From Dysidea avara (Eukaryota; Porifera; Demospongiae; Dictyoceratida; Dysideidae): 64,000 bases of DNA. Location: NCBI RefSeq assembly GCF_963678975.1, contig NC_089272.1, positions 45,962,032 to 46,026,031 of the forward strand. The letters run 5' to 3'. The translations under genes and the position numbers were made by a program. Shown here in pieces: positions 5,318-60,787 of this stretch (position 1 is its first letter; the number at the start of each line of letters is the position of its first letter). The notes beneath the pieces were generated by a model. That model ran no database searches. It worked only from the letters and a program-made list of their open reading frames with translations, and was not told the DNA's origin.

Positions 5318-5698
5318 CATAGGTGGCGGAAAGTGGAGGCCAGGGGGCTAAAGCCCTCCTTTGTCTGCTGAGGGGGAGCGTAACTACGCCCCCCCTCAGA
5401 ATGATACCATGCCCAAGTTATCCTTCTTGGAGTGAAGCTGAAAACCGCGATGAAGATCGAGATACTCTAATAGAGCAGTCACTCTAATAAAGCAGTCACA
5501 GAATTAGAGCAGTGTGTAGCGAGCTATGTAAGGATTTTTCAGTGTAGTTTATCAGCTATTAATGCGTAGCTGGTGAGGTGGGCAGCTACTGTCAGCTAGT
5601 TGCGACTTTTTTTTTTTTTGGTCTCACCATAAAAACCAGAGACTAAGTCTGGGTCAGCCCAGCCCCCCCCCTCGTATCAACTACCTCCTCCGCCCCTG
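5318..5698. mobile_element. hAT-type MITE with a near-perfect 8-bp target duplication
   Basis: The right end reads TCCGCCCCTG, and the left end (CATAGGTGGCGGA) is a decayed match to its reverse complement. The flanks ATTCTGAC (5310-5317) and ATTGTGAC (5699-5706) agree at 7 of 8 positions, as hAT insertions produce. The interior is non-coding, includes runs of T (about 5609-5620) and C, and carries the recurrent ACTCTAATAGAGCAGTC cassette at 5455-5514 in three tandem, progressively diverged units. Confidence 0.65.
5455..5514 (+). repeat. Recurrent cassette: GATCGAGAT leader plus three 17-bp units
   Basis: The leader GATCGAGAT is followed by ACTCTAATAGAGCAGTC, ACTCTAATAAAGCAGTC and a more diverged third unit. 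The unit core CTCTAATAGAG is an odd-length palindrome. The same leader-plus-unit arrangement recurs at many separate loci in this window, on both strands. Confidence 0.8.
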
Positions 5699-5784
5699 AT
5701 TGTGACACAAATAACATAGCTAAACGGACTTATGACCATGCGGAGATACAGTGTAAATTCAGAAGTGTAAAGTTTATAGCTAGC

Positions 5785-5817
5785 TACTGATGGTATGACT
5801 CCTGTGGTTCCATACCA
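5785..5817. repeat. Short hairpin at the left edge of LINE B
   Basis: GATGGTATG and CATACCATC form a 9-bp stem around ACTCCTGTGGTTC. The sequence TGATGGTATGACTCCTG is repeated in inverse orientation at 8674-8690 (CAGGAGTCATACCATCA), on the far side of LINE B. LINE B therefore seems to sit inside a small palindromic element. Confidence 0.5.
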
Positions 5818-5823
5818 TCATCA

Positions 5824-8406
5824 ATTCTAGAGATAGACTCAACTTGTGAAGTTATCTGGGTCCTTTTACATCTCCAACATTCTCATGACATCATCCTGGG
5901 AGCTTTCTATGCTCCTCCAAATTCTCCATCATCTGTATGGGATGAGCTTTCTGAAAGCTTAACACAAGTAAGGCAAAAATTTCCAACCACAATGATCGTA
6001 TTGGGAGGTGACTTTAATTGCCCTGGGGTGGATTGGTCGTCTGGTTCACTTATGGACTCTTACGTAACATCAACTTTCCGAGAATCCTTGATAACACTAG
6101 CTCATGATTTTATGTTGGAGCAAACTGTTAATTTGCCAACCAGAGGTAATAACATTTTAGATTTGTGCTTTACCACCCACCCTGACTATATCCACCAGTG
6201 TATAACAGTATCAGGCTTCAGTGACCATGAGACAGTTATTGTAGAACTGGCCAATCTTCAAGTTGGTCACAAGAATGTTCAGAAGAAAATATACCTTTAT
6301 AATAGAGCAAACTGGGATATAATTAGGGAAGAGGTCTCTACAGTTTCAGACATGTATTTAACTTTGAATGAAAATAGCTCTAGAACTGTGGAACAAAATT
6401 GGAACTTTATTCATGAAAGTATTCTACAAATCGTTAAAGACCATATTCCAGCTAAGCAAATATCTACATCAAGTCGCTTACCATGGATGACCTCTCAACT
6501 CAAAAGGCTGATTAAAAGAAAACAACGTTTGTATAAGCGAGCTAAAAGATTTAAACGCCCTTCTGATTGGAAAGCATATAAAGACATGCAATCCCAAGTA
6601 CGATCTGCTTTAAAGCAACAGCGTCTTAAATATCTTACTAGTAGTTTAAACTCAGATTGTGACAATAACAGAAGAAAAACATTTTGGAGGTTTATTAAGT
6701 CTCAAAAGCAGGATACAACTGGCATTAGCACATTACAGACACCTACTGATCAAGTAACTACACCCAAAGAAATTGCAGAAACTTTAAATAACCAGTTTAA
6801 ATCGGTCTTTACAGTAGAGGACTTGGAAAGCATCCCTGAAATGCCAGCATCCTCATATCCATCTATAAACAACATTGATATATCACCAAATGGGGTTTTC
6901 AAAATACTATCTGAGTTGGATCCCTATAAATCCCCTGGCCCTGATGCTATCTCTGGACATTTAGTAAAACAAACTGCTGCTGAAATTACTCCGATGCTGA
7001 CCCATCTCTTTCAACAATCTTTGTCCGCTGGTGTGGTCCCTAGACAATGGAAACTAGCACATGTCACTCCCATTTTCAAATCTGGCAAAAGATCTATCCC
7101 ACAAAACTACCGACCAGTATCTCTGACATCAATCATTTGCAAAGCAATGGAACATATACTCACAAGTCAAATTATGAAACACTTGGAAGCTCATGATATC
7201 TTAGTCCCCTGTCAATTCGGCTTTAGATCAAGGCATTCCTGTGAATCGCAGTTGCTTACTGTTACTGATGACTTTGCAAAAGCATTGAATAATAAACTCC
7301 AAGTAGATGTTGGTATACTAGACCTGTCCAAAGCATTTGATAAAGTTCCACATAAAAGACTGCTAAGCAAAATTGAATTCTATGGCATTAGAGGCAAGAT
7401 TTTACAATGGCTAGAGTCTTTCTTGAGCAATCGCTACCAACAAGTTGTCGTAGATGGTTCCTTTTCTAATTATTGTAAAGTCACATCGGGAGTACCACAA
7501 GGCTCAGTTTTGGGTCCTACCTTGTTCTTACTGTACATAAATGATATAACTGAGGGTATTAGTAGCCAAATGAAACTCTTTGCAGATGATTGCTTAATAT
7601 ACAAAGTTATTCACAGTTCAACAGACCATCAAACACTCCAACAAGACTTGACAATACTGTCAAAGTGGGCAGATAAATGGCAAATGGCTTTTAACATCAG
7701 CAAATGTAAGATAATGCAAATTTCTAATCACCATAACAAAAGTTTATTTTCGTATGTAATGAATGGCACCTCACTGGCAGTTACAGAACAACATTTGTAT
7801 CTTGGAGTAAAGTTACATCACAGACTTTCATGGAAGCCACATATAGATTACATCTGCAATAAGGCAAACAGAGCTGTTGGTTTTCTGCGACGAAATCTTC
7901 AGCATTGTCCTAGCCATCTACGTGAGCTAGCATATAAACAATTTGTCTTGCCTATTTTAGAGTATTGTTCCCCAATATGGGATCCATATCACCAAACCAA
8001 CATAAATCAAGTAGAGATGGTCCAACATAGAGCTGCTCGTTTTGTCACAGGTCAACCATGGAGACGAAATAATAGAGACAGCATCACTAACATCCTTGAA
8101 AACTTGCAATGGCCTACACTACAAGAACGTCGCAAATCAGCTAGACTAGTTTTACTATATAAAGTACTACATGATTTATTAATTATACCGAACTGTTATC
8201 TCCCATTTAAATCTACTGTATTACAGACCCGACACTCACACAACTTTAAACTAGTACCTTACCAACCAAGAATTGATGTATATAAATATTCCTTCCTCCC
8301 AAGAACTGTACCAGAATGGAATAGATTAGATGATGAGATTATTGAGACTGACTGTGTTGAAGAATTTAAGCAAAAATTAGCCCCTTCTATGTATATTGTT
8401 AAGTAA
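5824..8406 (+). CDS. LINE B ORF2: partial endonuclease plus complete reverse transcriptase
   Basis: The reading frame is open from 5824, in frame with the first ATG at 5992, which is probably internal rather than a true start. The upstream codons already encode endonuclease sequence (EVIWV, LGAFYAPPN), followed by GGDFNCPGVDW and GFSDHETV. RT blocks follow in order: SPGPDAISG, NYRPVSLTS, LDLSKAFDKVPHKRLL, SGVPQGSVLGP and the catalytic LFADDCLIY (FADD at about residues 530-533 counted from 5992). After YLGVKLH comes the C-terminal segment ILEYCSPIWDPY and QHRAARFV. It ends in the group-typical tail SFLPRTVPEWNRL before the stop at 8404-8406. It has no frameshift or stop: the best-preserved RT in the window. 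Confidence 0.9.
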   Translation: MLEIDSTCEVIWVLLHLQHSHDIILGAFYAPPNSPSSVWDELSESLTQVRQKFPTTMIVLGGDFNCPGVDWSSGSLMDSYVTSTFRESLITLAHDFMLEQTVNLPTRGNNILDLCFTTHPDYIHQCITVSGFSDHETVIVELANLQVGHKNVQKKIYLYNRANWDIIREEVSTVSDMYLTLNENSSRTVEQNWNFIHESILQIVKDHIPAKQISTSSRLPWMTSQLKRLIKRKQRLYKRAKRFKRPSDWKAYKDMQSQVRSALKQQRLKYLTSSLNSDCDNNRRKTFWRFIKSQKQDTTGISTLQTPTDQVTTPKEIAETLNNQFKSVFTVEDLESIPEMPASSYPSINNIDISPNGVFKILSELDPYKSPGPDAISGHLVKQTAAEITPMLTHLFQQSLSAGVVPRQWKLAHVTPIFKSGKRSIPQNYRPVSLTSIICKAMEHILTSQIMKHLEAHDILVPCQFGFRSRHSCESQLLTVTDDFAKALNNKLQVDVGILDLSKAFDKVPHKRLLSKIEFYGIRGKILQWLESFLSNRYQQVVVDGSFSNYCKVTSGVPQGSVLGPTLFLLYINDITEGISSQMKLFADDCLIYKVIHSSTDHQTLQQDLTILSKWADKWQMAFNISKCKIMQISNHHNKSLFSYVMNGTSLAVTEQHLYLGVKLHHRLSWKPHIDYICNKANRAVGFLRRNLQHCPSHLRELAYKQFVLPILEYCSPIWDPYHQTNINQVEMVQHRAARFVTGQPWRRNNRDSITNILENLQWPTLQERRKSARLVLLYKVLHDLLIIPNCYLPFKSTVLQTRHSHNFKLVPYQPRIDVYKYSFLPRTVPEWNRLDDEIIETDCVEEFKQKLAPSMYIVK

Positions 8407-11069: not shown

Positions 11070-11390
11070 CAGGGGCGGATCCAGAGTCTGGAAAGAGGGG
11101 GGCACCTTGCTGAAATAAAGTTGAAGAGCAAAAAAAAAAAAAGGTCACAACAATAATAGCTAGTTATCCTTTACCAAATATATTATATCACGTATGTTAT
11201 GTAAAATAAAATCCTATTTATAGCTTCCTAAATAAGCTACACTTCCCCATGAACACTGTGACTGCTTTATTAGAGTGATTGGTGATTGAATGCTCTATTA
11301 GAGTATCTCGATCTTATATACATTCTTTTAAGGGAGGGGGGCACGTGCCCCCTGTGCCCCCCCCCCCCCCCCCCCCTAGATCCGCCCCTG
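11070..11390. mobile_element. MITE with CAGGGGCGGATC termini inside LINE E
   Basis: The terminal inverted repeats CAGGGGCGGATCCAG (11070-11084) and CTAGATCCGCCCCTG (11376-11390) match at 14 of 15 bases. AACTT flanks both sides (11065-11069, 11391-11395). Skipping the insert and one AACTT rejoins the RT frame on the minus strand, so the boundaries are independently supported. The interior has a long C run and the recurrent cassette at 11258-11314. The termini look hAT-like, although only five duplicated bases remain. Confidence 0.8.
11258..11314 (-). repeat. Recurrent cassette, two units plus leader
   Basis: On the minus strand: leader (AGATCGAGAT), a unit with core CTCTAATAGAG, then a second unit (CTCTAATAAAG). 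It lies about 75 bp from the right end of the host MITE. Confidence 0.8.
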
Positions 11391-17650: not shown

Positions 17651-18270
17651 ATAATTGCAATTATACTGCAGTTGTACTATATGGTATGGTAGTGATTAGT
17701 AAGGGGTATTTCTTTTATTTGCAGTGGAAATTCTCCCCACTCTCCTTACTAAACTACTCTAATAGAACACACATATTATCTTATCATTCCCCTCACTCCA
17801 GGCAAATAATGGAGCTCCTATTAACGGTCCAGTACTTCTACCAATAGCTACTACTAGTGATTGTCCATTAACTGTACCCCTTGTAGCTGGCTGTATGGAG
17901 GGGGGAGTGGTGATTACACAGCTCATGACATACACTGTACTCACAAGCAGAGTTACTCACCAACACAAACACACTGGTTAACCTAGCAAGGCCGGAGGAG
18001 ACGGTCCGGTTGGTCAGGCCTGAGCCGGACCAATAATCTGGATTGAACCAACTAGCTGACCAGCTCGAACTATATTACTCTCATGCAATCTTTGGACGAT
18101 CACTTCACATGTAGCTACGTACATTTCACAAATGTTAAAATGCATGACACGAGTAGTTACCTAGTTTCTCAGCCTAACTAAAGCACAGAACTACATGTAT
18201 AGTACCTCCAATTACCTTACAGTACAGCATAGCATTCGTATCGTTTTGTACAGAAATGATTGTGGGTTAT
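17651..18270. other. No gene recognised; remnant of a CCGGAG...CGGTCCGG repeat
   Basis: A single unit of the recurrent cassette lies at 17749-17771. At 17989-18037 the sequence GCCGGAGGAGACGGTCCGG resembles the left end of the hAT-like element at 27363. A 61-residue minus-strand frame (17944-17759) rich in small residues could be a lone exon, but no convincing splice sites or homology were seen. Confidence 0.35.
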
Positions 18271-23690: not shown

Positions 23691-23846
23691 TGAAAGTAAG
23701 CTGCCAAGAAGATATTCCTGAAGAAAAGTTGTGCTTTCCTACCCTTCGTGAACAGAAATGTCGTTGAACGCAATTTCAACTCCCAGTCCAGGTTTATACT
23801 GCCGTTGAAACGACCGAGATCTAAAGACAGCTCAAACTAGCGCTAG

Positions 23847-24750
23847 AAGAAATCCAAAAGAAACAGTACTTGCCCAATATGCGATGAAGTAATTAAAGAA
23901 GCTACAAAGCACAGGAAAGGTGATGATGCAATCTATTGTGAAGGCTACTGTGACGCGTGGGTACATCATAGATGCACTGGGTTATCAGCAACGAACTTCG
24001 CGACATTAAGAGATGCTGGCGAAGAACACACGTTCTTTTGTCTATACTGTGAGATCCAAGCACAGAAGGCAGAAATAGACAGCTTAATGTCGACCATTAC
24101 TACACTTCAAACTTCTCTAAATGATCTTAAACGCAAACTAGACCTTGTTAATCAACCACAGCAGACTTCTACTCAAACTGTTCGTGCTCCAGTTGTTGAC
24201 AAAGTTTCAAACACTGTTTATCAAAATTCCACCAACATTGATAGGAAATTCAACATCGTTGTGTATGGTGTAGCAGAAAATCCCCAAAATACCAACAGAC
24301 AACTCCGAATGAAAAAGGACATGGAAAACGTGATGGAGGCTCTGTCTGCAACTGATATTGACATTGAACCTAGTGATATAAAAGATTTGTATCGTCTCGG
24401 CAAGTATGACCAAAAGAGTGAGCGTCCCAGACCCCTTCTGGTGAAGTTCCTTCATTCAAACACAGCAATTGATATCCTAAGTTCTAAGTCTAAGCTTGAA
24501 GCTCCAATCTACATAAAACCTGATCTAACTCCCCAGGAGCGTCAAAAAGGAATGCTTATTATTGAAGGAAAGGAGATCCCTAATTGACAATGGTACCAAA
24601 CGGAGATACATCAAAATAAGAAATGATTCCTTATACCTCAACAACAAGCTTCACTGCAAAGTGAATACAGATGGTAACAAATTAGAGTATGTAACTGTAT
24701 CAGCACAGCCACTTAATAATACCTCTGCCACAAGCATGGAGTCATCCTGA
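23847..24750 (+). pseudogene. LINE C ORF1: PHD finger, coiled coil, RRM-like domain (decayed)
   Basis: The frame is open after a TAG at 23844-23846, with no in-frame ATG before the PHD finger. The nearest ATG (23758) is in another frame, so the N-terminus has decayed. A complete C4HC3 PHD pattern follows: CPIC, YCEGYC, WVHHRC, then FCLYC. A coiled coil lies at about 24075-24160 and the RRM-like domain at about 24240-24540 (FNIVVYGV, LYRLGKYD, RPRPLLVKF). A frameshift at about 24555-24565 moves the end (ERRSLIDNG, LYLNNKLH) to the frame that stops at 24750. Confidence 0.8.
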
Positions 24751-24849
24751 CTCCCTATTTCCACTATAACTAACTCAAATCCTGACTCAAATTCACAGGT
24801 ATTTAATAACTCTACTAATAACCCAAACTCAAATAATGTATTAAGTGAT

Positions 24850-25574: not shown

Positions 25575-25577
25575 GTC

Positions 25578-27360: not shown

Positions 27361-27413
27361 TACAGGGCCGGAGCCCACGGTCCGGCCGGTCCGGCCACTT
27401 TAATTTGAAAAAA

Positions 27414-27490
27414 GATCGAGATACTCTAATAGAGCAGTCATCATAATATACTCTAATAGAACAGTCATTGCAATACTCTAATAGAGCATT
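27414..27490 (+). repeat. Recurrent cassette, leader plus three units
   Basis: The leader AGATCGAGAT is followed by three units with cores CTCTAATAGAG, CTCTAATAGAA and CTCTAATAGAG, spaced about 28 and 27 bp apart instead of the 17 bp seen at 5455. It begins about 50 bp inside the left end of the host element. Confidence 0.8.
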
Positions 27491-27671
27491 CGGTTTAGAA
27501 AATAGCCACTGTTCTACTCAGTCTAAGCCATTAAATCTATGCTAATTGTCCTCAAATCACTCAAAAGTTCCAGTGAGTCATAAAGAACTAAGCTTTCACT
27601 AAAATTTTGAAAGTAAAATTAGCTATGAAATGGTACTGTAGTACAAAATTACCAGGATATATCCTTAATGT

Positions 27672-27946
27672 TAACAAAAGGAGAAAGAGGCTTTGCAAGT
27701 AAAATAGCCTCAAGATGCCATTTCAGAGCATCTATAATTTTTTCACCCAGAGAGTGACAAATACATGGAACTCCCTGCCAGCAGAAGTTGTTTCAGCACC
27801 AACAATCTCTACTTTCAAAGCAAGTCTTGATAATTATTGGAATGACATAGGATATGGATATGAACAAAGGCCTAGTGCCTAAACTTTATTTTTGTAACCC
27901 TGTTTGTATATCCATCCATCCATTAATAATAATAATAATAATATTT
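27672..27946 (+). mobile_element. LINE 3' tail nested in the hAT-like element (LINE I)
   Basis: The frames around 27672-27882 encode TKGERGFASKIASR and then, after a frameshift near 27720, FQSIYNFFTQRVTNTWNSLP and VSAPTISTFKASLDNYW, ending in a stop at 27880-27882. This is the same family as the tail at 32725-33182 (both end near QRPxA). AGGC and GCCT form a short stem at the stop codon (27868-27880). An (AAT)n tail follows at 27923-27943. The nesting order is LINE C, then the hAT-like element, then this LINE. Confidence 0.7.
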
Positions 27947-28128
27947 AAAAATTTTCCTGGGGGAGCATGCCCCCAGATCTCCCTAAATTGGCATGCTGTG
28001 TGTGCTTAGCACATGCAGTTGAGTATCACATGATCTAAAAATCACATCAGATCAATAAGTAGTATGACCTCCATTGCAGTCCATGGATGGCCGGACCACT
28101 CAAAATCTCTGGGCTCCGGCCCTGAATT

Positions 28129-28745: not shown

Positions 28746-31640
28746 TATACTCGGACACTCGTTCTCATAAACTGCTGGACAGAATCCTACGAAAATTGGT
28801 GTGGAGATACCTTGCATATAGCCCAACTATATCTCCAATTTTGAGCCAAAACTCTTGTTTGATTGTTGTGCTAGACCACATCAAAGTCGTTGCTCAAAAT
28901 CATATATTCTCGGACAAAATTTAAGTATTATTATTATTATTATTATCTAGGCCCGGGGCACATATAACCAAGTACAACTACCAACGGGGCAATCTATAAA
29001 TGGGGAAATCTACAAATTGGGCATGTACAACAGTGCATGACCAGCGCAGTGAATAGTGATAGTCACAGGTTTAATGATAAAATAACTATGTTGCAAAAAA
29101 TTAAATTCTTGCAGGCTACATAAGTACAAGTATAAGAAAAATTAGGACTACACTGTAGAGTAGGAACAATGTACATGTAGATGTGTATATGCAAGTAGTC
29201 AGCAAATTTTTGCTGATTAGTTAAAAGTATAACACACCACATATTGCTAAACTGCATGTACTCACTTAGAAGTTTATCAAGTTGTCTAGCTTAACACAAG
29301 GTTCACTCGCTAACTATATTTACATGGTATTACATGTATAGCTATATTATGTGGTTTGCTTGACACATCATGTGAAGAAACACAAAGAAAGTCACAAAGG
29401 AAAGAATGCTACCAGTCCGGATATGATGAAACAAACAAGAGAAGTATGCTTGACTCTATCCAACCAATACTGCCATGTCGTTATGAAGAAAAATCAAGGC
29501 AAGTTTTTGGGTGATGTTTTATCACCAGCCGCGCCCACCCTGTCATCATCTTTACTATGCAGTACTATTGTACTGTATGATAAATGTGCCCTTGGGATGG
29601 TGCTACTGATGGATGCAAGTTTTCATACTCAATGGAGGATTTTAATAGTGTTGTATATGGTGACTGTTTTATTAGAGTATTTGACAAGACTACAAAATCT
29701 TGTGTACATAATTAGTGTGTGTCTGTCTGTCTGTGGGGAGGGACGGAGACTGTCGGTTGAGTGGTTTCCACAGCCTCAGCCTGTGCATGGAGCTAAGGTC
29801 CATTGGAGAGACAAGGCGAGGCAGGAGCCATAAGGACCTGATTCAAGAGATTCAGTACTGCCTTGCCAAAGACAGGAACATGTAGAGAGATGTGTGCCAG
29901 AAGGTGCAGAACACTACTCTTTCTGCACAGGAACTTGTCACCATGAATTTCAAAGTAGACAGGGTATTGCCAGACAAGTATTAAATGACATGTCCACAAG
30001 GGAGGAAGAGGTAGCCATGGTTTGGTTCACTACCAATAGTGTGAGGCATCGTCCAGTGGATGGCTTCACTTTAATGGTCAATGGTGTGTGTATGTGTGTG
30101 TGTGTGTGAAAGGAAAGTGGCATGTGCCCTGTACCCCCTCCCACCACTGTCAATAGCATTGTAACCTTTCGCTTTTGATACATGCACTATATATGTGGAA
30201 ATTTGATGTTTAATAACATATAAAATATTATAGTATTGTCAATACAGTACGTACACATTGTGTGCTTTGACTTCAAGTTCGGTGACACCAAACTAACTAA
30301 GAGCAGCCATACAAGGTTAATTTGACAGTATGTTTGTGGTTACGCACAACAAATGCAGAAACCCAGACCATACTGAAAAATCTCAGTGGACTAACTTATG
30401 TACGTACATTGTTTCAAAAGTGGCAGAATGGATCAGATAAAGCATAATACAATTGTAAAAGGAGACTACTGCAATTCATGGAACGTATGCAGTGGCCAAA
30501 ATGAATGATGATTTTAGATTATGTGGCAGTAGATTGGAAAACCAGTTACTGATGAGGAAGTTTAAACATTGTAATTGAGTGGACATCAGAGATACCCTTT
30601 CCACAGCAGTGTGAACATGAAAAAATCACAAAGTTCATGCAATGTACTTATTCCTAATAGAGCAATCACCAATATGTGGTCAGTACAATTTATTGCTTCA
30701 CACTATCAGAGAGTAGCTGGGAAAGAAATAACACTTATTTTGCTTAAATTATAGTACAGTTGCCATTATAGTAATTTTACCGGTCATGAGAACTGTGTGA
30801 AAAATCGAACACAATGACCATTAACATGAAGGGACACATGCACTTAGCAGGCGGACATTCAAGAGATCAATCTAAGAACTAATTGATGTGGCTCAACAAT
30901 ACTGCAATGACAGTCAAAACCCTTTACCTTATGATGTGTGGTGATAAACAAAAGCTAAATAGAGCCTATATACATTATTGAGGTAACTTTCAACTACTCT
31001 ATTAGCGTATCTTGATGTACTTGACATTAGTGCTGCCACAATATGTGACTAGATATAGCAAAATCAACCATATGGGTGCAAGAGCCAAAAATGAGAAAAC
31101 ACCAGCATGAAGTTGCTGCACTAGTATCGGGCTAACAATTTCCATATCAAACTCCTCTTCAACTTGTCAGGTCTGCTTGTGGTAGACTGTTTTCTGGCAG
31201 CCTGTATAACCATGCCAGATGTCTGTACAGGTTTGTGAACAGCAGGGAAGTGCTTTTGGGGGTTTATGTATACACTCTGGACAGACGATCAGTAAGCTGA
31301 ATGTGTGATGTATGTTTGTTTCGTGAGATTTCAGTCTATTCCTGCCTTTGATGGGCTGTTTTGTGGTCTGGTGCCTTCAATTACCATCCTCATCCATTTT
31401 GTAGTCTTTCTCTTACCCACCCTGCCACTCAGCCCCTTTTTGAGGACTCATGATATAGCAACACTGGTGAAAAATCTATCTAAAATGGTGGGAAACTCTA
31501 CAAGAGTTATCTTGGCCACCAGGTATTCTTAAATGTTATGAATTGCTCCATCTTTGTTGAAAAATCCATATGTGTAGTTGCCAAGGCTGGTGAGTAACAA
31601 TGCATTAAATTAATAAAATACATTTTTTCTCTGAATCATT
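28746..31640. other. No gene supported; scattered cassette units
   Basis: A (TTA)n run lies at about 28924-28947 and TATA/GT-rich stretches occur throughout. Single cassette units appear at 29660-29684, 30648-30670 (diverged) and 30993-31018 (minus strand). The longest open frame (29351-29833) contains one of these units and shows no domain. Nothing else was recognised. Confidence 0.45.
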
Positions 31641-32724
31641 ATAACATACCTGCTGGTTAGAGCTCGATATCTTCCGTCTTAGCTGAGATATTGCCGTTCA
31701 AAAATACATAGTCGCCCATACAAATTGTATAAACGTCCCCACACTACAGCGGCTGTTTTACATCTGTGACGTAATTTCGGATAAGGATCATTAGGATATC
31801 ACAACATTTTATTTCTACTAAATACATAACACCCAAGAAAATTTTAAGCTTTAGACCCTCTGAAATTGAATGTGAGACGGATTTCAGCAGTTTAATAGAA
31901 TAGCTACTACTGAATAATCTGATTTGCCTGACTGCTACATTAGCGTGACTGTTCTATTAGAGTATCTCGATCTTTTTCTCGATCTTTTTAGTTATGCTCG
32001 GACCTGGGCCTCGATTCCCGCTACGCCTCTGTCAGCCTGGTGCTACCTTTCAGTCCTACCCCTACTTAAATTACAGAAACTTACAACACTTCTAGCCAGT
32101 TTAGTTGTAAATCTTGGGCTCAGTTGTTTCACCCTTTCAATGCCGCTCAGCTGTAGCCATCCTTCTGGTCAAGCAACTAGTCTATCCCAAACACCAGCTT
32201 TCTATGTAGTATGACGGTACCAGTATGGTACTCTAGCCAACGGCGCTTCACCCTAATCCGTTGAGTTTGTCTTGAACAAGTTCAAAGTAGTATCTAACGC
32301 CAAGTTAAACGCGCAACGCATAGCTATGAACTGCATGGTTGCTATAAACTAAAACCGGTTCCGAACAGTTCTCAAACCGGTTATACAAGCTCAATGTTTA
32401 CTGTTGCACGTAGTGCACTGGTTGCCGTACACTCAAACCGGTTATACGAGTGGAATGTGTTGTAACTAACGCGTACTGCGTTTGAACTAGTTGCCAGGTA
32501 CTGAAGAGATGTTACTACGGATAGCGCTATATAGAAAACCTAACTTGGTAATAAAGAGTAGCAGAAACAAACCTGTCGTTTTATTTAATGTTCGGATATC
32601 GCTTCATCTAATACCGGTTAGTGTTCTGTTCTATGCCTTGTAGTTTTGTCTGTGAATTAATTATTTATGACGTCACGTTTGTATTATTCTTATTACTTGG
32701 TTATATAATTAATGGGTTATTATT
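31641..32724. other. No gene supported; MITE end and an LTR-like segment
   Basis: A cassette with two units and leader lies on the minus strand at 31928-31974. CTACGCCTCTG (32018-32028) resembles the right end of CAGGGGCGTAG-type MITEs. Further right, CTCAAACCGGTTATAC occurs at 32370 and 32436, 66 bp apart. A TATATAG box (32528) is followed by AATAAAG (32551), which is reminiscent of a solo LTR. I could not define its ends. Confidence 0.3.
31928..31974 (-). repeat. Recurrent cassette, leader plus two units
   Basis: Minus strand: leader AGATCGAGAT, unit with core CTCTAATAGAA, then a second diverged unit (CGCTAATGTAG). About 45 bp further right is a possible MITE end. Confidence 0.75.
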
Positions 32725-34454: not shown

Positions 34455-35080
34455 AAAGTTTGTGTATGTATCTGTGTCTGGAGGGCTTGTTTTTGTGTGT
34501 ACATGCATGTGTGTGTAGTGTATATAGGTAAGTGACTGTAACCAGGGGCGTAGGGGTAAGGGGGGTTGTAGGGCTCAGGCCTGTAAAATTTTGACTTCTG
34601 CAGAGTTTACAACACACAATTTAGTGTGGCAGGACAAAATGAGTGAGTAATAGTGTATGAACAGGACAGCAATTTATAAAGCTTACGTTCATCTCTCCGG
34701 GAAGGATTTATAGAGCCCTCTTGAAATTTGTTTAAAGATTGATATACTCTAATAGAGCAGTCACGTATACTCTAATAGAACATGTGGGAGTTTTTCAGAC
34801 ATTCTAACAATGCAAAGCCGGCTGAGCATGACCTTATACTGCTATAGATGTTGTGCAGTGTTTAAAGATGTAGAACTTCAGTAATTTATCACTTGGGCAT
34901 GCAATATAAATCCATGCTATGTATATTTGTAGTTATATGTTTTGATTGTAAGTTATTCCATTCGTATCAGCGAATGTTTCTAATATTTAAAATCCACAAT
35001 CAAAATTTTTAATTTATTGAATCTAAGGAGTAAAGACCTATTGTTGTGAGAATTCTGTTGTTGTGAGAATTCTATGCACT
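33297..35080. other. No gene supported; GT microsatellite and MITE fragments
   Basis: 33748-33795 resembles the left end of the MITE at 49442 (CACCTATCATTGTCAAGCCC). (GT)n is at 34403-34453. At 34543 the sequence CAGGGGCGTAGGGG looks like a left MITE terminus, and a cassette follows at 34737-34780 with two units, but no matching right terminus was found. No coding sequence was recognised. Confidence 0.45.
34737..34780 (+). repeat. Recurrent cassette, leader plus two units
   Basis: Leader AGATTGATAT (diverged), unit core CTCTAATAGAG, then CTCTAATAGAA. It lies about 190 bp right of the CAGGGGCGTAG terminus at 34543, again consistent with a hAT-like MITE context. Confidence 0.7.
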
Positions 35081-36542: not shown

Positions 36543-38260
36543 GTGCCCCTGGTAACCATATACAATAGCATCTGGAGGCTTTACTTTTGTTTGTATGTTT
36601 GTGCGTAAGGAGTGTACAGGTTACATATTTATAGTGATGATATAGTAGGTGTATCTGTGCCTACAGTATGATGCATGCTAACTACTTGTAGTGTGTCACT
36701 TTTTGCAGCTATTTACTTGTTGTGTTGGACAAGTTTTTGGAATGAGATTTAAGACTGTCGTACCTGATCAAAACTATGAATGACCAAACTAATAGTGTAC
36801 TCACTCCAGACTAACTACATATCATAGACCACTTACAGGACAATGGTATGTTTCTGAATATTGCAGAGAGTGTGATAAACAAAGTTTGTTTTCAGGATTA
36901 CCAGCATTTACCAGCTACGTACTCAACCAAGGCTCATTGAGACTAACCACACGCATAAAGGAGTGTCATTTAGGGGTGAGTAGTGGACTAGCTGTGATTG
37001 ACTGTGTTTATTTTTGTCCTTCAGAGTGGTATAAAGATTGTCTACTAGTAACATAATTGCCTCAGAAGAAAGGCGAACGCCCGCAAGAATGACGTTTTGC
37101 TGGAGATGTATTGATTGATATTTTTTACAATTGTTTAAATATTTTAATGTTAAAAGTACTGCTGCTGTATCAGCCATAGTGGAACTGTTTACTAGTGATT
37201 CAATTAATTTAGTTACCACCAAACATAGTCTGTGAATTAGCTGCAGTGCATTCTAATTTTTTTTTTTTGGAGTGGCAATCTTTATTCTTTACGTGAGTCC
37301 TACCAGCTGTGAGTAATCAACCTGATATTACAGCTAACTGCTTATTATATGGCACTCAAATAATTGAGGGTTTTAATATTAGCATAATTGTGGGCTTGCC
37401 ATTGGAGCTGTAGCAATTGCATTATTGATGCTAAACAACTTTTGTATAGCTAAAGTAATGCATGAAGACTGGATGAGGATTTTTATATTATTCACGGCAC
37501 AATTTACATAACACACATACTAGAAGGGGGCCAAGAACTCCTTGATGTATGTATGTATGTGTAAGGTATTTGGAAGAGTCACGTCTGTGGCATAAACATA
37601 AAAATTTGACAGTTAATTTCACTCAGTGCATGGTGTTGTAGAGCAAGGGTCCTCATGCATATGCATTGCTATAATTGTGTTGGTGTTATATAAGTGACTG
37701 CTTTATTAGAGTAGAAGACTCCAAGTTGACTGCTTTATTAGAGTAAGTATATAGCCAGCTGCTGTATTCAAGTATCTTATTGTTTCTTTGCTTGCACTGT
37801 TTCAGTGGTGTATCCAAAAGATTGTTGCATCACAGTACAAGAAAACTTATTAACTTGTACCATTCAATTATTCCTAGAACTCACCCAATTATAACTGCTA
37901 CCTATAATAGCTATATGCATGCTAGTATTTAAGGTAAAACCTCTTGGAACCATTCTTCAGAACTTTCAAGCATAACTATCGGTAGGGAAACAAACGACAT
38001 GAATGATATCTCGATTGATGATGTTTCATCTTTCTCTTTGATCTGTAACAAACATTATCGAACATTGCTAATCTATTACATTTGAAATACAAACATCTGA
38101 GTTGTTTATAGGTCATCAAGTTCTGATGTGGCCAGAAAATTATAATCATCTAGGCTCCAGGATGAAGTTTGCACTGACTGGAAAAGGAGGTTATTAGTCC
38201 TGACTTTCCCCAAATTTACTATGATCAGTACGTGGTGATCATGGTGAAGTGGATATAACA
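36543..38260. other. No gene supported; cassette units at 37693-37779
   Basis: Contains three minus-strand cassette units, the first two with core CTCTAATAAAG, within 37693-37779. A 99-residue minus-strand frame (37222-36923) has no recognisable domain. A T run lies at 37258-37268. Confidence 0.45.
37693..37779 (-). repeat. Recurrent cassette units (decayed)
   Basis: Reading the plus strand: GTGACTGCTTTATTAGAG at 37693, TGACTGCTTTATTAGAG at 37727, and a weaker third unit near 37758. Same unit, minus orientation, no clear leader. Confidence 0.65.
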
Positions 38261-38860: not shown

Positions 38861-41800
38861 AGAGCTTATATACCCCCAGATCACTTTTACAGGTTTTGGT
38901 AAACTCATTGTAACACCTGAACAAGTTTGCTCTCAGTCATCTTGCTTATAGAAACAAATAAGTCAGCTAGTTTATTGTCACTATTGTTTTGTCTAGTGTT
39001 TGTAATGGTCTAGTTCTATACGTTTGCCTGGGTTTGGTCCTGCAACCTTTATACTGGTGTGACATTTGCACCATTCCATCAGCTTCCATATGAGTTGCGT
39101 AAAATGGCTTCTTCTAGTGATCATGATTTGTTAAAAATAGTCAATGTATATATATAATTCCTTGCTAAGAATAATCACTGGACAGTCAATTTTCCATCTC
39201 CTTGTAGTATTATTCTTTCTACTTTCTAGCCTGGTTGTTTCAATGTATCCTTTCATTGCAGTCTTGTTTCACTATAAAGAATAATGTATATTGTTTACCA
39301 AACTGACTCCATCTGCTATCCAATGGTGATTGGTGAATAGATCGATTCCTATATACTCCCACATTATAATATTATACTCTTGATTATGTAACACTTATGC
39401 ATGCACATTGGGGCATTCTGTCATGCAATCGCATGATGTAAGGGCTGAGTCTTGTACCACCATGTATACACAGGAACACCTTTAAAAGGAGGCACCTTGA
39501 TAGGTAGGACACCGTACACATGGTTAATTTGTAGTAAAGACACATGCATACTCCTGAGATCAGGGAACCTCTCTAATAAAGCCATTACTTTTAGCAGAAC
39601 CTCAATCAAGGTGTCTGGAATAGAGCTAGGACTGCAGTTCCACTGTATTACACAAAGAGTCTCTACATAGCTCGATGAGTACTTTGAATAACGATCATGT
39701 CCCAGCTTTTTTATTTTGTAGTGTACTATTTGTCATTATTGATATCAAATAGCAGTGATTTTATCAACTACTTCTGCTCTCTGTGCTACCCAAGACTTAT
39801 TTTATCCATTTCAAATGTCCAAGGTTTTGGATGCGTAGTAATCTTCTACTCTTGCTGCTTTCCTGCAATTTAGTACCTAGAAGAGAAGCTTTAATAATAT
39901 AAAAGTGCCATGTAAATTGCAGCCATCACAATTAAATTATGTACTTTCAGTCAAAAGTATTTGCAGTATTAGCTAACTATTGTTAACATCATGCTTTGTA
40001 ATTTATAAATGATGTATTTCTGTCATCAGTTGAATGCAATAAATAGATAAAAATAAACTACCACATGAATACTTTAGTGAACACGTGAGCCTGTATCATG
40101 TGATAAGGGGTTATAAGGTGTAAGAATTTATTCATACAATGTCACTATGAGGCTGTGTAATGGTGCAAGATGCCATCTTTTACTACCCTCGATAAGATTT
40201 CAGATGATGAAAGACATGTTTTGTTGTTGTTGTTGTTTTGTGTGTACACATAAATAACAGTTGAGCAATTCTGGGTTTTTTCCTGGTACCAGGCAAAAAA
40301 TAGCTTTCTAAGGCTTAAAAAAACTTAAAATTTCTCCCATACTATTAGTTGTAGCTGAGCTTTTGAGTATGTAGCATAGTTGTAAATGTTGAATTGACAT
40401 TTTGATAAATGGTAGCCCAAGCATGCCTAGTGGCACACAACCCAATGTAAGTGTATTGTAGGTGGTAAGAGTAATACTATATATGGTGAGTAAGCTAGTC
40501 CTTTCTGCTGCCATTCCAGAGTAGGGAAGGCTGAAATAGTTGAAGTAGTTAAAGTGAGGGGGAGCTGATCGGAGTGTAGGATCTCTGGTAGCAGGGGTTG
40601 AGGGATGCAGTCCCCCAGATGCTGTTGCCATTTTAACTTTCACAATGTCTTAAAGTATACCAAAATCATTTATAAGGGGAATTCGAAGCATTTTAACTAC
40701 ACCACCAACTCATTTGCATTTTAAGCAGACTATTTGCAGTCAACAAAACACTGCTTTGGAAAAGTTATTTTAGTGTAACTATTAATGAGTAAGGTTTAAA
40801 AGTTCATAAAGCACTACAAAACAGCCTTTTCTGCACTTGGAAACACTTGACATGCTGGTTAAAATAACCAAGTGGCTCGAATCTAAAATATTTGTGTTTC
40901 AACTAAGTTTAGGAACACATTTATGAAGCTTTTGACTGCTATATTAAAAGTCATTTTCTATTAATTTTCAAACAGTTATCAGCCCTGCCCTGCTGAATAA
41001 TTTTGGTAATCTTATTTTGAGGGATGGCAAAGACCCCTTCCACCTTGGCAGACCAAAAGGGATTTGGCATCCTAGCTTACTTCCCCCTCCCCCACCTCCT
41101 TTGTTTACTGCTTCTCACATCAAAATCAATATACCCCCTTGTTATAGACAACAGGAGATAAATTGTCTTTACCAAATTGGTGAAGTTAGTATAATCATGA
41201 CCTCGCTAAATATACCAGTGTCTTTAATTTCACCAGTTTGAAGAAAACTATATGATCTTCGCAGGAATAAGAAGGGGATTTGGTGTACATTTTATGTGAA
41301 ACATTATTGTTCAGAGAAACACCTAGTATATATGTATAATCAGTGGCTATGTAGCTAGTACAAACGTGTGCTGTGGTGGATCCAGATAGGGAACAACAGG
41401 CAAATGCTCCCCCTCTCCCTTCATCCTTTAACCCCTCCCCCCTCCCCCCCATCCTTTACCCTACACATCCATCTCTGAACTCCCTTACCCAAAACACAAA
41501 CTCCCTTATCCAAAATACAGACAAAATTCCTTACAAGATTGAGATACTCCAATAAAATATTCAGTCAAATGCTTTTAACGGAACAGTGACTGCATGTAAT
41601 GCTATTGTTACAATACAGTCCTTGCATCTTTAGCCATTTCATGGCATGCTCAGCTTGCTAGGATGAAAAGTACATAGTTCTTTGTATGCTATTCTATATC
41701 CCAACATGTACTTCAGTTTCATTACTGAACTACTCATGACACTGATCCATACAACTCTCAAGGCAAACCAGTTAGAAAGCACAAATTATTACTATAATAC

Positions 41801-46452: not shown

Positions 46453-46508
46453 GTGTCTGTTCTATTAGAGTATTTCGTCTAAGGCGTTTATTTCATTAGA
46501 GTAACTCT
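46453..46508 (-). repeat. Recurrent cassette units (decayed)
   Basis: Plus-strand reading: TCTGTTCTATTAGAGTATTT at 46455 and TTTCATTAGAGTAACTCTG near 46491. Minus orientation, no convincing leader. Confidence 0.55.
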
Positions 46509-48472: not shown

Positions 48473-48908
48473 TAGGCACCGGCCTATTATGCCCGAAATT
48501 TTACCTATTATGCTTTTGAGCATTGCTCAAAAATTAAGCCTATTATGCTCAAAATTATGCTTTCAAAATCAAAATTATGCTCTAGAAGTGACTGTTTTAT
48601 TAGAGTATATCAGCCTTTCCTGACTGCTCTATTAGAGTAAGTGACTGCTCTATTAGAGTATCTCGATCTTATTTCTGCAAAGTGTGAATAACCAACAAAG
48701 AAACGGTTTAATAAGTTGTATTACGTGTTTTTGATTATAAAATGCACTAATAATACTATTGGCAGTAAATATTTGCTTTCTTTCAGGCGCGCGTATTGCG
48801 CATTTAATTAATTTTTCAAACATCGTCCCTATTATGCTGGCATTATGCTTGATGCTTTTGGCCACCTATTATGCTTTAAATTATGCCGGCATAATCGGCC
48901 GGTGCCTA
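48473..48908. mobile_element. hAT MITE, 436 bp, perfect 8-bp target duplication
   Basis: Ends TAGGCACCGGCC and GGCCGGTGCCTA (perfect 12 bp; 19 of 20 when extended). TCTCCAAT is duplicated exactly (48465-48472, 48909-48916). The interior is built from many copies of a CTATTATGC-like word. It carries the recurrent cassette with three units at 48588-48669. It interrupts a LINE relic. Confidence 0.85.
48588..48669 (-). repeat. Recurrent cassette, leader plus three units
   Basis: Minus strand: leader AGATCGAGAT (48669-48660), unit cores CTCTAATAGAG, CTCTAATAGAG and CTCTAATAAAA. It sits inside a hAT MITE whose TIR is unlike those at 11070 and 60597. Confidence 0.85.
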
Positions 48909-55076: not shown

Positions 55077-55122
55077 AGATCGAGATACTCTAATAGAACA
55101 GTCACCCTAATAGAGCATTCAG
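55077..55122 (+). repeat. Recurrent cassette, leader plus two units, at the satellite's left edge
   Basis: Leader AGATCGAGAT, unit core CTCTAATAGAA, then CCCTAATAGAGCATTCAGCT. The second unit resembles the satellite monomer that begins a few bases later (CCCTGTAGAGAGTTCAGCT). Confidence 0.8.
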
Positions 55123-55129: not shown

Positions 55130-58100
55130 ATTTACTCCATTATAGAATTCTATTACATTACAAGTTATTCTGTAGGGACTTCAGCTGCAAACAGTTAATC
55201 TTATAGACAGTTAAGCAAGAAGCAAGTCACCCTGTGGAGAATTAAGCTACAATTATATCACTGTAGAGATTCAGAGCATTACAAGTCACACTAAAGAGAG
55301 TTCAGCTATAAACAAGTCATGCACCCTGTAGAGAGTTCACCTACAATTAAATCACTCTCTAGAGAATTCAGCTACACACAAATCACTGTGCAGAGAGTTC
55401 AGCTACAAACAAATTATCCTGTAGAGAGATCAGCTACAAACAAAACACTTTCCAGAGAGTTCAGCTACAAACAAATCAATCTTAGAGTGATCAGCAACAA
55501 ACAAATTAACTTGTAGAGAGATCAGCTAGAAACAAATCAACCTGCAGAGAGATCAGCTACAAACAAATCAGCTTGTAGAGAGATCAGTTACACACAAATC
55601 AACCTGTAGAGAGATAAGCTAGAAAAAATCACCCTGTAGAGAGTTCAGCTAAAACAAATCAACCTGCAGAGAGATCAGCTACAAACATATCACCTTATAG
55701 ACAGTTCAGCTACAAACAAATTACCCTGTAGAGAGATCGACTACAAACAAATCAACTTGCAGAGAGATCAGCTACACACAAATCAACTTGTAGAGAGATC
55801 AGCTAGAAACAAATCACCTTGTAGAGAGTTCAGCTACAAACAAATCAATGTGCAGAGAGATCAACTACAACAAATCACCCTGTAGAGAGATCATCTAGGA
55901 ATTAGACACAATGTAAGGAGTTCAGCTACAAGCAAATCACCCTTTAGAGAGTTCAGCTACAAACAAATCAACCTGCAGAGAGATCAAATCACCTTATAGA
56001 GAGTTTAGCTACAAACAAATTGCCCTGTAGAGAGATCAGTTACAAACAAATCAACCTGCAGAGAGATCAGCTACACACAAATCAACTAGTAGAGAGATCA
56101 GCTACAAACAAATCACACTGTGGAGATCAGCTAGAAACTAGACACAATGTAAGAAGTTCAGCTACAAAGAAACCATCATGTAGAGAGTTCAGCTGCAAAC
56201 AAATTACTCTGTATAGAGTTCAGCTAGAAAAAGTCACCTTGTAGAGAGTTCAGCTACACAGTTCAGCCTCAAATAAATTACCGTGTAGAGAATTCAACAA
56301 AAAGCAAATCGCCCTTTAGAGGGATCAGCTAGAAGAAGTTACCTTGTAGAGAGTTCAGCTACAAAGAAACCATCATGTAGAGAGTTCAACTACAAAGAAA
56401 GCACCATGTAGAGAGTTTAGCTGCGCACAAATCACCTGTAGAGAGTTCAGCTAGAAACAAATCACGCTGTAGAGAGATCAGTTAGAAGAGGTCACCTTGG
56501 AGAGAGTTCAGCTACAAAGAAATCACCACCTAAAGAGTGCAGCTACAAAGAAATCACCCTGTAGAGAGTTCAGCTAAAAGAAGTCACCTTGTAGAGAGTT
56601 CAGCTACAAAGAAACCATCATGTAGAGAGTTCAGCTACAAAGAAAGCACCATGTAGAGAGTCTAGCAGCAAAAAAATCACCTGTAGAGAGTTCAGCTAGA
56701 AGAAGTCACCTTGTAGAGAGTTCAGCTACAAAGAAACCATCATGTAGAGAGTTCAGTTACAAAGAAACCACCATGGATGTAGAGAGTTTAGTTGTACACA
56801 AATAACCTGCAGACCGTTCAGTTAGAAACAAATCACCCTGTAGAGAAATCAGCTAGAAGAGGTCACCTTGTAGAGAGTTCAGCTACAAAGAAACCGTTAT
56901 GTAGAGAGTTCAGCTACAAAGAAAGCACCATGTAGAGAGTTTAGCTACAAACAAATCACCTGTAGAGAGTTCAGCTAGAAGAAGTCACCTTGTAGAGAGT
57001 TCAGCTACAAAGAAACCGTCATGTAGAGAGTTCAGCTAGAAACAAATCACCCTGTAGAGAAATCAGCTAGAAGAGGTCACCTTGTAGAGAGTTCAGCTAC
57101 AAAGAAACCATCATGTAGAGAGTTCAGCTAGAAACAAATCACCCTATAGAGAAATCAGCTAGAAGAGGTCACCTTGTAGAGAGTTCAGCTACAAAGAAAT
57201 CACCACCTAAAGAGTTCAGCTGCAAACAAATCACCCTGTAGAGGGATCAGCTAAAAGAAGTCACCTTGTAGAGAGTTCAGCTACAAAGAAACCATCATGT
57301 GGAGAGTTCAGCTACAAAGAAATCACCCTGTAGAGAGTTCAGCTAGAAGAAGTCACCTTGTAGAGAGTTCAGCTACAAAGAAACCATCATGTAGAGAGTT
57401 AGTTACAAAGAAACCACCATGGATGTAGAGAGTTTAGCTGCAAACAAATAACCTGTAGAGAGTTCAGCTAGAAGCAAATCACCCTGTAGAGAAATCAGCT
57501 AGAAGAGGTCACCTTGTAGAGAGTTCAGCTACAAAGAAAGCACCATGTAGAGAGTTTAGCTACAAACAAATCACCTGTAGAGAGTTCAGCTAGAAGAAGT
57601 CACCTTGTAGAGAGTTCAGCTACAAAGAAACCGTCATGTAGAGAGTTTAGCTAGCACCATGTAGAGAGTTTAGCTGCAAACAAATCACCTGTAGATAGTT
57701 GAGCTAGAAACAAATCACCCTGTAGAGAGATCAGCTAGAAGAGGTCATGCACCTTGTAGAGAGTTCAGCTACAAAGAAACCATCAGGTGGAGAGTTCAGC
57801 TACAAAGAAATCACCCTGTAGAGAGTTCAGCTAGAAGAAGTCACCTTGTAGAGAGTTCAGCTACAAAGAAACCATCATGTAGAGAGTTCAGTCACAAAGA
57901 AACCACCATGGATGTAGAGAGTTTAGCTGCAAACAAATAACCTGTAGAGAGTTCAGCTAGAAACAAATCACCCTGTAGAGAAATCAGCTAGAAGAGGTCA
58001 CCTTGTAGAGAGTTCAGCTACAAAGAAATCGTTATGTAGAGAGTTCAGCTACAAAGAAACCGTTATGTAGAGAGTTCAGCTACAAAGAAAGCACCATGTA

Positions 58101-58575
58101 GAGAGTTTAGCTGCAAACAAATCACCTGTAGAGAGTTCAGCTACAAACAAATCACCTGTCAGCTAGAAGAAGTCACCTTGTAGAGAGTTCAGCTACAAAG
58201 AAACCGTCATGTAGAGAGTTCAGCTACAAAGAAAGCACCATGTAGAGAGTTTAGCTGCAAACAAATCACCTGTAGAGAGTTCAGCTAGAAACAAATCACC
58301 CTGTAGAGAGTTCAGCTAGAAGAAGTCACCTTGTAGAGAGTTCAGCTACAAAGAAACCATCATGTAGAGAGTTCAGCTACAAAGAAACCACCATGGATGT
58401 AGAAAGTTTAGCTGCAAACAAATTACCTGTAGAGAGTTCAGCTGGAAACAAATCACCCTGTAGAGAAATCAGCTAGAAGAATTTATCTTGTAGAGAGTTC
58501 AGCTACAAAGAAACCATCCTGTATATAGTTCAGCTATATTTTAAGTCACCCAGTAGAGGGATCAGCTGCTAAAAA
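55130..58575 (+). repeat. Satellite array, ~31-bp monomer, ~110 copies, partly higher-order
   Basis: The monomer contains TAGAGAGTTCAGCTAC followed by an AAACAAATCACC-like half. From 55130 to about 56250 monomers of one type predominate. From about 56330 to 58570 variants (CTAGAAGAAGTCACC, CTACAAAGAAACCATCATG, CACCATGGATG) alternate in a recurring order. The CCATGGATG variant recurs near 56772, 57417, 57906 and 58392, giving a period near 490 bp in the right part. Open frames here are repeat artefacts. Individual monomers vary by a few substitutions and small deletions. Confidence 0.95.
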
Positions 58576-59109: not shown

Positions 59110-60343
59110 TGTATTTAGATGGATGATACAGTAACGCATTGTGACTTCAATACTCGTGATGTGTCACTGCTAGGCAGCAACCATATACACGGCACTGCCA
59201 CATCGCACTTGCTCGCACACACAATTTTGCTAAAGATTTTACAAATTGTTAATTAAGGGGTGTGGCAACTAGCTGTTTCGCTCGCAAGACTGTGTGGCAG
59301 CTGTTTCCCTTCTGTACAAGTGGCCACCAAGACAGGTCCACTGTGGATGAAAGCCAGGCATTAGATATTTGGTATTTCATGTGTTGAAGACATTCCAGAG
59401 CTTCTGGTAGTCTCAAATCTCACCACAGTTTAACTCAGGCAGTGTTGTGGTCACCACTAAACTACTGGAATACTGTGTTATGTTCATTTTATGCTTGGCT
59501 ACTATATTGTAGAACTGAAATGGATACTCTGAAAAATATATCCTATGGATAATGACTTCATCACTTTCTTCATCAGGAGCTTATAAGGACCAACAGTGAA
59601 ACTTTTTACGCTTGGGGCTGACAGTCAACTGCCTATGTCTGAAGCAGTGCTTTTGGTGCTCTAACAGATTGGCTGCCCCCTTGCTGCCAGCACTCACTGT
59701 CTCATACGCTGTCATACACTAAATCCATCTCTATAGCCAGTTAGAACAGTATGCTTCTTACCTTTTTTTAAGGCCGCATAATGCAGCCACCTCTTTAAAA
59801 GGCAAGGTCAGAAAATTTTGTCCCTACGGCCTGAATAATGACCAGTTTTCACTGTACTATTAGTGATTAGTGATCATGGGGGATTATTTATTAAGATACT
59901 AAGATATACAAACGCTACAACCTCTAAATATAGCAGTAAATTTTTTACCCTGGTCCAATGTCTCGTAATAATCGTGACTTCGTGAGAGACTCTACTGTGA
60001 CAAATACATGTTTATCGTGATATGTGCTAATCGCCTTTTTACAATTAAGTTTTACAACACAAATACATGTATAGTTAAACTCACCAATTGTGACTAAATC
60101 TCTTCAACACGAAAAGACAAGTAATGAGACAACCTTGGAGACAACAGTCACACAAGCCTATTCTGGTGCGTTTATTTAGTAGTAATATAAATTTTAAAGG
60201 CGTTTATGTACAACAGGACATAATTACGCGCCCCTCTATTGTCTCTGTACATACTTGCCTTTTCTTTACTATTCTCATTTCATTTCAAAAGATCTCTTGG
60301 CAGGGGCGTAGCTTCTTCACTTGAATTAGTCAATGCTTGTAGT
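59110..60343. other. No gene supported
   Basis: Around 59789-59856 a decayed pogo-like end is visible (GGCCTGAATAATGACC then TTTTCACTGTA). CAGGGGCGTAG at 60301-60311 looks like a left MITE terminus leading into the cassette pair at 60344-60510. No coding sequence recognised. Confidence 0.4.
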
Positions 60344-60510
60344 AGATCGAGATACTCTAATAGAACAGTCACATTTCTACAAGTGCCATATTTTTATATT
60401 GTAAAGTCTGTAAGTAGCTAGAACTATACAATCCGATGCTAAGCAGAAGCTAAATATTGATTGTTGTGTTACAGCTGTTTTGTGACTGCTCTAATAGAGT
60501 ATTTTGATCG
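60344..60510. repeat. Inverted pair of recurrent cassettes, 167 bp
   Basis: The left copy (leader AGATCGAGAT, core CTCTAATAGAA, AGTCACA) faces a right copy (TGTGACTGCTCTAATAGAG, then ATTTTGATC). This is the only place where two cassettes with leaders point toward each other, so here the cassette forms the ends of a palindromic unit. It follows a CAGGGGCGTAG MITE-like terminus at 60301. Confidence 0.7.
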
Positions 60511-60596
60511 TTTCAATGCAGTACAAGATGAAAGGCAAAGTGTTGTTAAGGGTTTGTTAAAATGGGTGTTAGTTGACTGCAGTTGCATGCCACTAA

Positions 60597-60787
60597 CAGG
60601 GCCGTCCAGAGAAATTAGAGGGCCCAGGGAAAAGAATTAAAGAGGGGCCCAGGGGCAAGGAAGGGTCTAGATCCTGACTGCTCTATTAGAGTATATCGAT
60701 CTTTCTTTAAACAGGTATTCAAGTGGCTTCTTTCGGGCTGTGGTAGGGGGCAAAATACCTCAGTTACCCCCAATGTTGGCGGCCCTG
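60597..60787. mobile_element. hAT MITE, 191 bp, perfect 8-bp target duplication
   Basis: Ends CAGGGCCG and CGGCCCTG. GCCACTAA is duplicated exactly (60589-60596, 60788-60795). It includes a purine-rich left part and a minus-strand cassette unit with leader at 60675-60703. The termini resemble those of the 762-bp element at 27363. Confidence 0.85.
60675..60703 (-). repeat. Recurrent cassette, leader plus one unit
   Basis: Minus strand: AGATCGATAT, core CTCTAATAGAG, CAGTC. Inside the 191-bp hAT MITE. Confidence 0.85.

Follow-up and report, generated by a model that had tools for sequence, protein, structure and literature searches.

Several MITEs with different terminal inverted repeats (TIRs) in a 64,000-nt stretch of the Dysidea avara genome (hereafter the window; C1:45962032-46026031 of assembly G000, which comprises 550.8 Mb in 108 contigs) share a short cassette, consisting of a leader followed by one or more copies of a 17-bp unit, which raises the question of why one internal sequence should occur in elements that differ in their ends. 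hAT transposases bind subterminal repeated motifs in addition to TIRs, and an earlier note on this DNA had proposed that the cassette is either a transposase-binding module that allows unrelated TIRs to use one transposase or a parasite of the MITEs themselves.

Structure and abundance of the motif

The earlier note listed about 18 cassette loci in the window, all of which were recovered by unit or leader scans with the exception of a partial copy at 30648 that was recognised by eye. The features in the window are:

5318..5698, + strand: MITE E3, hAT-like; cassette 5455-5497 with two units; 8-bp target-site duplication (TSD) ATTCTGAC/ATTGTGAC with one mismatch
11070..11390, - strand: MITE E2; TIR CAGGGGCGGATC; 5-bp TSD AACTT; cassette 11260-11313
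17756..17772, + strand: unit without leader (3 mismatches)
27363..28124, + strand: MITE E1; cassette 27414-27491 with three units; interrupts a LINE reverse-transcriptase frame
29662..29678, - strand: unit without leader (2 mismatches)
30992..31017, - strand: weak cassette (3 mismatches in the unit scan, 3 in the leader plus half-unit scan)
31930..32031, - strand: cassette 31930-31972 and a single hAT-like end CAGAGGCGTAGC at 32031 (motif and end scans)
34543..34785, + strand: lone hAT-like end CAGGGGCGTAGG at 34543; cassette starting at 34737 (motif and end scans)
37696..37744, - strand: two units without leader (unit scan)
41537..41554, + strand: leader with degraded unit (leader plus half-unit scan)
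46455..46471, - strand: unit flanked by pogo-like GTTCAGATAAT motifs (unit scan)
48473..48908, - strand: MITE E4; TIR TAGGCACCGGCC; perfect 8-bp TSD TCTCCAAT; cassette 48590-48668 with three units
55078..55120, + strand: cassette of a repeat family, running into a 31-bp tandem array (unit and leader scans, alignments)
60301..60509, + strand: hAT-like end CAGGGGCGTAGC at 60301; cassette 60345-60371 (+) and inverted cassette 60484-60509 (-)
60597..60787, - strand: E5, hAT-like; 8-bp TSD GCCACTAA; cassette 60676-60701; lies within a larger repeat that has multiplied
62000..62128, + strand: weak units (2-3 mismatches)

The window also contains LINE elements at 523-4470, 5791-8406 and 22401-28677, one of which appears by eye to have a PHD-like first frame. 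Endonuclease and reverse transcriptase domains were identified by Pfam in the frames at 1544-3601 and 5791-8406, and LINE reverse transcriptases are encoded in the window, with RVT_1 present in four of the five frames scanned. Directly after the cassette at 55078, whose surrounding region has alignable relatives in L015, L020, L032 and L033, a tandem array of 31-bp units (like GTTCAGCTACAAACAAATCACCCTGTAGAGA) extends over ~3.4 kb (55169-58536). A long-arm hairpin element of ~0.6 kb without a unit is located at 60932-61526; such hairpins recur across the sampled stretches and are mostly unit-free.

Within the window, allowing three mismatches, 27 sites match the unit ACTCTAATAGAGCAGTC (0.23 expected; maximum of 2 in 100 shuffles), and leader plus half unit has 12 matches (0.03 expected). 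Twenty 10-kb stretches taken at fixed steps through the assembly (L017-L036) served as an unselected sample and contain 70 copies of the 18-mer described below with up to four mismatches, compared with 0 for the reversed pattern. At least one unit copy with up to two mismatches is present in 14 of these stretches (range 0 to 9 per stretch); at this threshold, unit density along the sample is uneven, with peaks in L029 and L024. Across the whole assembly (551 Mb), the unit occurs 129,515 times with up to two mismatches (64,514 forward and 65,001 reverse) and its reversed control 22 times (16 and 6), while the 27-bp leader plus unit occurs 58,480 times with up to three mismatches (29,124 and 29,356 on the two strands) and its reversed control 0 times (0 and 0). 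Shuffle and reversed-pattern counts in window, sample and assembly rule out chance as the source of the motif, and the frequency above background outside the window, on which the earlier note had made its proposal depend, is borne out.

The core CTCTAATAGAG can be read off as an odd-length palindrome of 11 bp, in agreement with the earlier note. In a set of 59 first units taken from unselected sequence totalling 264 kb, information content is confined to about -10 to +18 (~28 bp), and conserved columns stop sharply near both limits. A loose part near YRARAT is followed at once by a strong 18-bp part, ACTCTAATAGARCAGTCA, and the exact leader word GATCGAGAT lies directly 5' of a unit in 13 of its 14 occurrences in the same sequence. 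Position +11 of the unit is G (0.57) or A (0.42). Carriers have one to three tandem units, and close units in the 264 kb are spaced 17 to 32 bp apart, most commonly 17 and 25; the lower bound of 17 bp in the earlier note therefore holds, and the real range is slightly wider than its upper bound of about 28 bp. A pol III B box of a tRNA-derived SINE was considered for GATCGAGAT and rejected, as there is neither a conserved upstream box nor a tRNA or Rfam match.

piRNA sizes include ~28 nucleotides, and the conserved length of ~28 bp would be compatible with a shared piRNA or siRNA site that serves as small-RNA target or source. Active elements, however, should lose a silencing target rather than keep it, and the window contains no Rfam family at gathering scores, and a small-RNA role appears highly improbable.

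Carrier elements and their target-site duplications

The 8-bp TSD typical of hAT elements is present in E4 (TCTCCAAT), in the E3 relative L022 (perfect, GCTCGTAC) and in L061 (TTTACCTG), and E3 itself matches at seven of eight positions. E4 has at least 39 other copies at 97-99% identity among those scored (3,536 candidates), whose matches start no more than 17 bases from its left end and stop no more than 26 from its right end; five of them are clustered in 9 kb of C2, and their independence is uncertain. E4 has recently multiplied. For E5, at least 40 full-length matches including itself were scored among 1,562 candidates. Its TSD is perfect in nine of ten fetched copies and has one substitution in the tenth, and as the outer flanks are identical in all ten, E5 represents a single insertion into a larger repeat that later multiplied, its TSD counts once, and a recently active E5 family with 8-bp TSDs is refuted.

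Inspection of the ends of E1 (27363-28124) revealed no clean TSD, and a search for the right end of the element starting at 60301 found none. By eye, the interior of E1 (27690-27945) resembles the terminal part of a LINE frame with a TAA-repeat tail behind it; E1 would then be a MITE inserted into a LINE and itself containing a LINE fragment.

Elements with the TIR CAGKGGCGGATC, namely E2, L015:1417-1759, L024:4042-4912 and L013, are flanked not by 8-bp but by 5-bp duplications (AACTT, TGATT, GAAGG and, in L013, GGTAC). A hAT5 group with 5-bp duplications exists. L015:2397-2687 has a TIR of this class, is flanked by a 5-bp duplication (TTTAG) and ends on the right in a module found also in E2, but no unit was found inside it with up to six mismatches allowed. 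This right-end module, common to elements of the 5-bp class including the unit-free one, consists of GTTGTGACC followed by poly-T and (G)GTCTTCAAC or a sequence close to it. All five bounded MITEs of the earlier note are real, with the corrections that the TSD of E2 comprises 5 rather than 8 bp, that E1 has no clean TSD and that E5 is nested. They share the cassette across different TIRs, as the earlier note had stated, and do not align end to end; a single MITE family is excluded by family alignments and copy boundaries.

A third type of carrier is represented by L028:7158-7374, which has pogo-like TIRs and a TA duplication and contains units. At least 39 other copies of this family were found among those scored (1,435 candidates), 38 starting at query position 150-159 and one at 174, while the element with its TA starts at 157. 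In all ten fetched copies, mostly the best-scoring of the 39, the features of pogo/Tigger elements were found, namely TA on both sides and inverted CAGT ends, together with distinct flanks and two units (up to four mismatches). Furthermore, TA duplications flank the carriers L029:3299-3747 and L065:341-581. CAGT-type pogo ends with a unit inward give a weak signal (3 of 10, with 1.15 expected and a maximum of 5), and the resemblance of one pogo TIR to the unit (shuffle fraction 0.015, one among seven comparisons) is only a lead. As the carrier classes differ in target duplications, they would also differ in transposases.

Automatic scans for TIR plus TSD called elements at only four of the 57 unit loci of the unselected sample, where 20 random sets gave 0-3, and at 4 of 28 loci selected for an exact unit, and with so few calls the class assignments rest on copy boundaries and individual duplications. 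Most of what general inverted-repeat scans yielded were unit-free hairpins with long arms, and unit-bearing pairs were no more frequent than expected by chance.

Association of leader and unit with transposon ends

Among the 57 unselected loci, 10 of 23 leader loci (leader matching at least 7 of 9 positions) have a hAT-like end no more than 450 bp away, compared with 0 of 34 others (Fisher p = 2.6e-5), with the qualification that one of the ends on which the hAT-like pattern was based, that of E4, had itself been picked for carrying the cassette. Pogo-like signals, in turn, were found near 0 of 23 leader loci and 7 of 34 others (p = 0.034), several of the seven being close to one L028 element and hence not independent. 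In random 918-bp pieces, hAT-like ends occur at a background of 6.6% and pogo-like signals at 4.1%, and 40 of the 57 loci have neither. The leader goes with hAT-like ends, and the unit is more widely shared. The proximity of cassettes to hAT-like ends is also evident from CAGRGSCG ends, 11 of 17 of which (both ends of an element being counted separately) have a unit no more than 400 bp inward, compared with 1.65 at random places and a maximum of 5 in 300 trials. The distance of the unit from the leader-side TIR is not constant and varies from about 44 to 240 bp among the window elements, as calculated from coordinates.

The association with hAT-like ends would be expected of a cis-acting transposition signal, that is, a site for a transposase or helper, which might act in the hAT-like carriers alone and have in the leader its hAT-specific half. 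This explanation is at odds with the inconstant distance from the TIR and with the presence of the unit in elements that duplicate TA or 5 bp, and the unit is also missing from L015:2397-2687 and from four delimited autonomous hAT elements. At least 150 PF05699 matches, of 1,875 candidates, were scored as hAT transposases in the assembly, and six loci with long frames were fetched. Matching TIRs together with perfect 8-bp duplications marked out the element in four of these (L082, L085, L086 and L087). None of the four contains a unit with up to three mismatches, and L086 and L087 have units only outside the element; their TIR types (TAGGG, TAAGG, TAGGC and TAGAG) differ from those of the carriers, and as high scores and long frames guided the choice of loci, the true partners of the carriers may have been missed. 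Close to the edge of L080, a partial transposase locus, there is a leader plus unit, which may or may not belong to the element. Taken together, the unit-free element of the 5-bp class and the four delimited autonomous hATs constitute evidence against one transposase-binding module, the first proposal of the earlier note, and a transposition signal is distinctly unlikely. The data fit a weaker form, in which only hAT-like carriers would have the GATCGAGAT leader.

Unit conservation and variation in unit number

The unit is more conserved than its flank in 26 of 35 within-family pairs with a flank identity of up to 0.85 (mean 0.81 vs 0.74), a comparison biased toward conservation as reciprocal pairs were included and queries were picked for a good unit; several of the nine exceptions belong to the tandem-array family, in which alignments can lose register. 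This slower divergence of the unit, together with the sharp ends of the conserved columns, speaks against common descent with swapped ends, according to which the motif would be the leftover of one ancestral internal region, spread by recombination or gap repair and now functionless. Some different families do share about 60-110 bp around the unit, and unit number varies as in tandem repeats, both of which such descent would explain, and we consider it an unlikely alternative.

Related copies differ in unit number, L022 having one of the two units of E3. Together with the occurrence of one to three tandem units at spacings of 17-32 bp, this resembles an independently spreading minisatellite, in which the unit would insert or be copied into transposons and then vary in number. 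In 288 kb of local sequence, however, alignments that extend across a unit revealed no unit-free version of a matching copy (unit-free being an alignment that lacks at least 60% of the unit region). A minisatellite is accordingly quite improbable, and the second proposal of the earlier note, that the cassette is a parasite of the MITEs, likewise finds no support in these alignments.

Occurrence in a second sponge

Scans of viral contigs gave 0 and 5 unit matches, each of the five being single-copy and taken as chance. In genome contigs, a first scan gave 0 matches and a second gave three (L006, L007 and L008), of which the one in L007 lies inside a 2168-aa frame. L006 is a contig of a GTDB bacterial MAG (SP12ARB1), obtained from a Lamellodysidea sponge sample of host clade Ia according to the available part of the source (PMC7313196). 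Its GC content drops from ~55% to 38% or less near base 4200, and past this point it resembles by eye a eukaryotic gene with short introns. With its stretch 4200-5370, L006 is a bacterium-sponge chimera or contaminant.

The sponge end of L006 aligns to C12:25852043-25853328 in two pieces of 86% and 77% identity, so that the Lamellodysidea-derived piece and this assembly represent related sponges. One unit is located in an intron of L006, and the orthologous Dysidea intron (L037) contains two on the same strand. Most of this intron does not align, and the probability of a same-strand unit in a random 578-bp piece is 0.048. The L006 sequence around the unit has a second alignment, of 96 bp, to another place that contains a unit (L037:31-124), which is what copies of one transposon family would show, and the placement in orthologous introns is thus weak evidence. 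We take L006 to show that the motif is present in a second sponge, not that the site is conserved. A unit-like sequence with five mismatches at L037 1593-1610 reads by eye, on the reverse strand, like the 3' splice site of a short intron.

A putative protein-binding site spread by transposons

A very abundant compound motif of unrelated non-autonomous transposons is a better description of the cassette than a transposase-sharing device. Copy number, specificity, the three target-duplication classes (8 bp, 5 bp and TA) and the second sponge are observed directly. The best-supported explanation, tentative and with a probability of about 0.42, is a binding site for a DNA-binding protein of the host or of domesticated origin, which unrelated transposons would carry and amplify. 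The cassette would be a compound site composed of the near-invariant 18-bp ACTCTAATAGARCAGTCA and a looser, class-dependent upstream part, which is GATCGAGAT in hAT-like elements and in pogo-like elements resembles TTGACAAAAT. Its copies, one to three per element, have been spread ~130,000 times by non-autonomous DNA transposons that belong to several unrelated classes. A host protein or a domesticated transposase-derived protein may recognise the site, and carrying it may help the transposon, most simply by bringing it into accessible chromatin in those cells in which transposition is advantageous. The host may also have put some copies to use. A more far-reaching version of this interpretation is unlikely: a dedicated sequence-specific protein of dysideids, possibly a domesticated pogo-type transposase, would recognise the ~28-bp site in hAT-like, 5-bp and pogo-like transposons, and its more than 100,000 copies would form a genome-wide binding network predating the split of the two sponge lineages.

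The hAT elements Ac and Hermes contain subterminal transposase-binding repeats. The sponge motif is similarly short, repeated and present in hAT-like elements, often less than 100 bp from one end, but it is longer than these repeats, occurs also in non-hAT carriers at inconstant distances from the TIR, and is absent from the four delimited autonomous hATs, whose ends are unlike those of the carriers. Tandem-repeat MITEs of bivalves also have internal tandem units common to different elements, and one sponge family has a long 31-bp array; the bivalve units, however, are long satellite monomers, whereas the sponge units comprise 17-18 bp and mostly occur in one to three copies. Brassica MITEs amplified E2F sites, and the sponge motif would likewise be a host factor's site multiplied by MITEs, with the difference that the plant site is short and its factor known, whereas the sponge site is long and its factor a candidate only.

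Searches of the literature on sponge MITEs and shared hAT subterminal motifs found no description of the motif, and its letters gave only a chance match in Drosophila papers. The motifs discussed in the available part of the Amphimedon histone paper are other ones (PMC5429095), and the word 'transposable' is absent from the main text of the Dysidea avara genome paper (PMC12909245). The closest precedent by analogy appears to be the m1m2/HIM-17 system of Caenorhabditis, in which, according to the accessible text, CERP2 and CELE2 MITEs contain m1m2 motif pairs bound by HIM-17, many copies of which lie outside promoters (PMC9757741). As in that system, one specific two-part motif is present in thousands of copies and in more than one MITE family. 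The Caenorhabditis families are related, and both the protein that binds them and tests of promoter activity are described, whereas the sponge site is putative and known from sequence alone, its carriers fall into three target-duplication classes and its copies number ~130,000.

These results suggest that transposons have been spreading what may be a binding site for some cellular protein. To our knowledge, transposon-borne binding sites known so far belong to one family or to related families, whereas here one long, specific motif is common to classes that differ in target duplications and occurs about once per 4 kb. If it is not a protein site, it would represent an unusual short internal module common to unrelated transposons. 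If it is, this early-branching animal would allow testing whether transposons gain from host binding sites and how much regulatory wiring can come from transposons.
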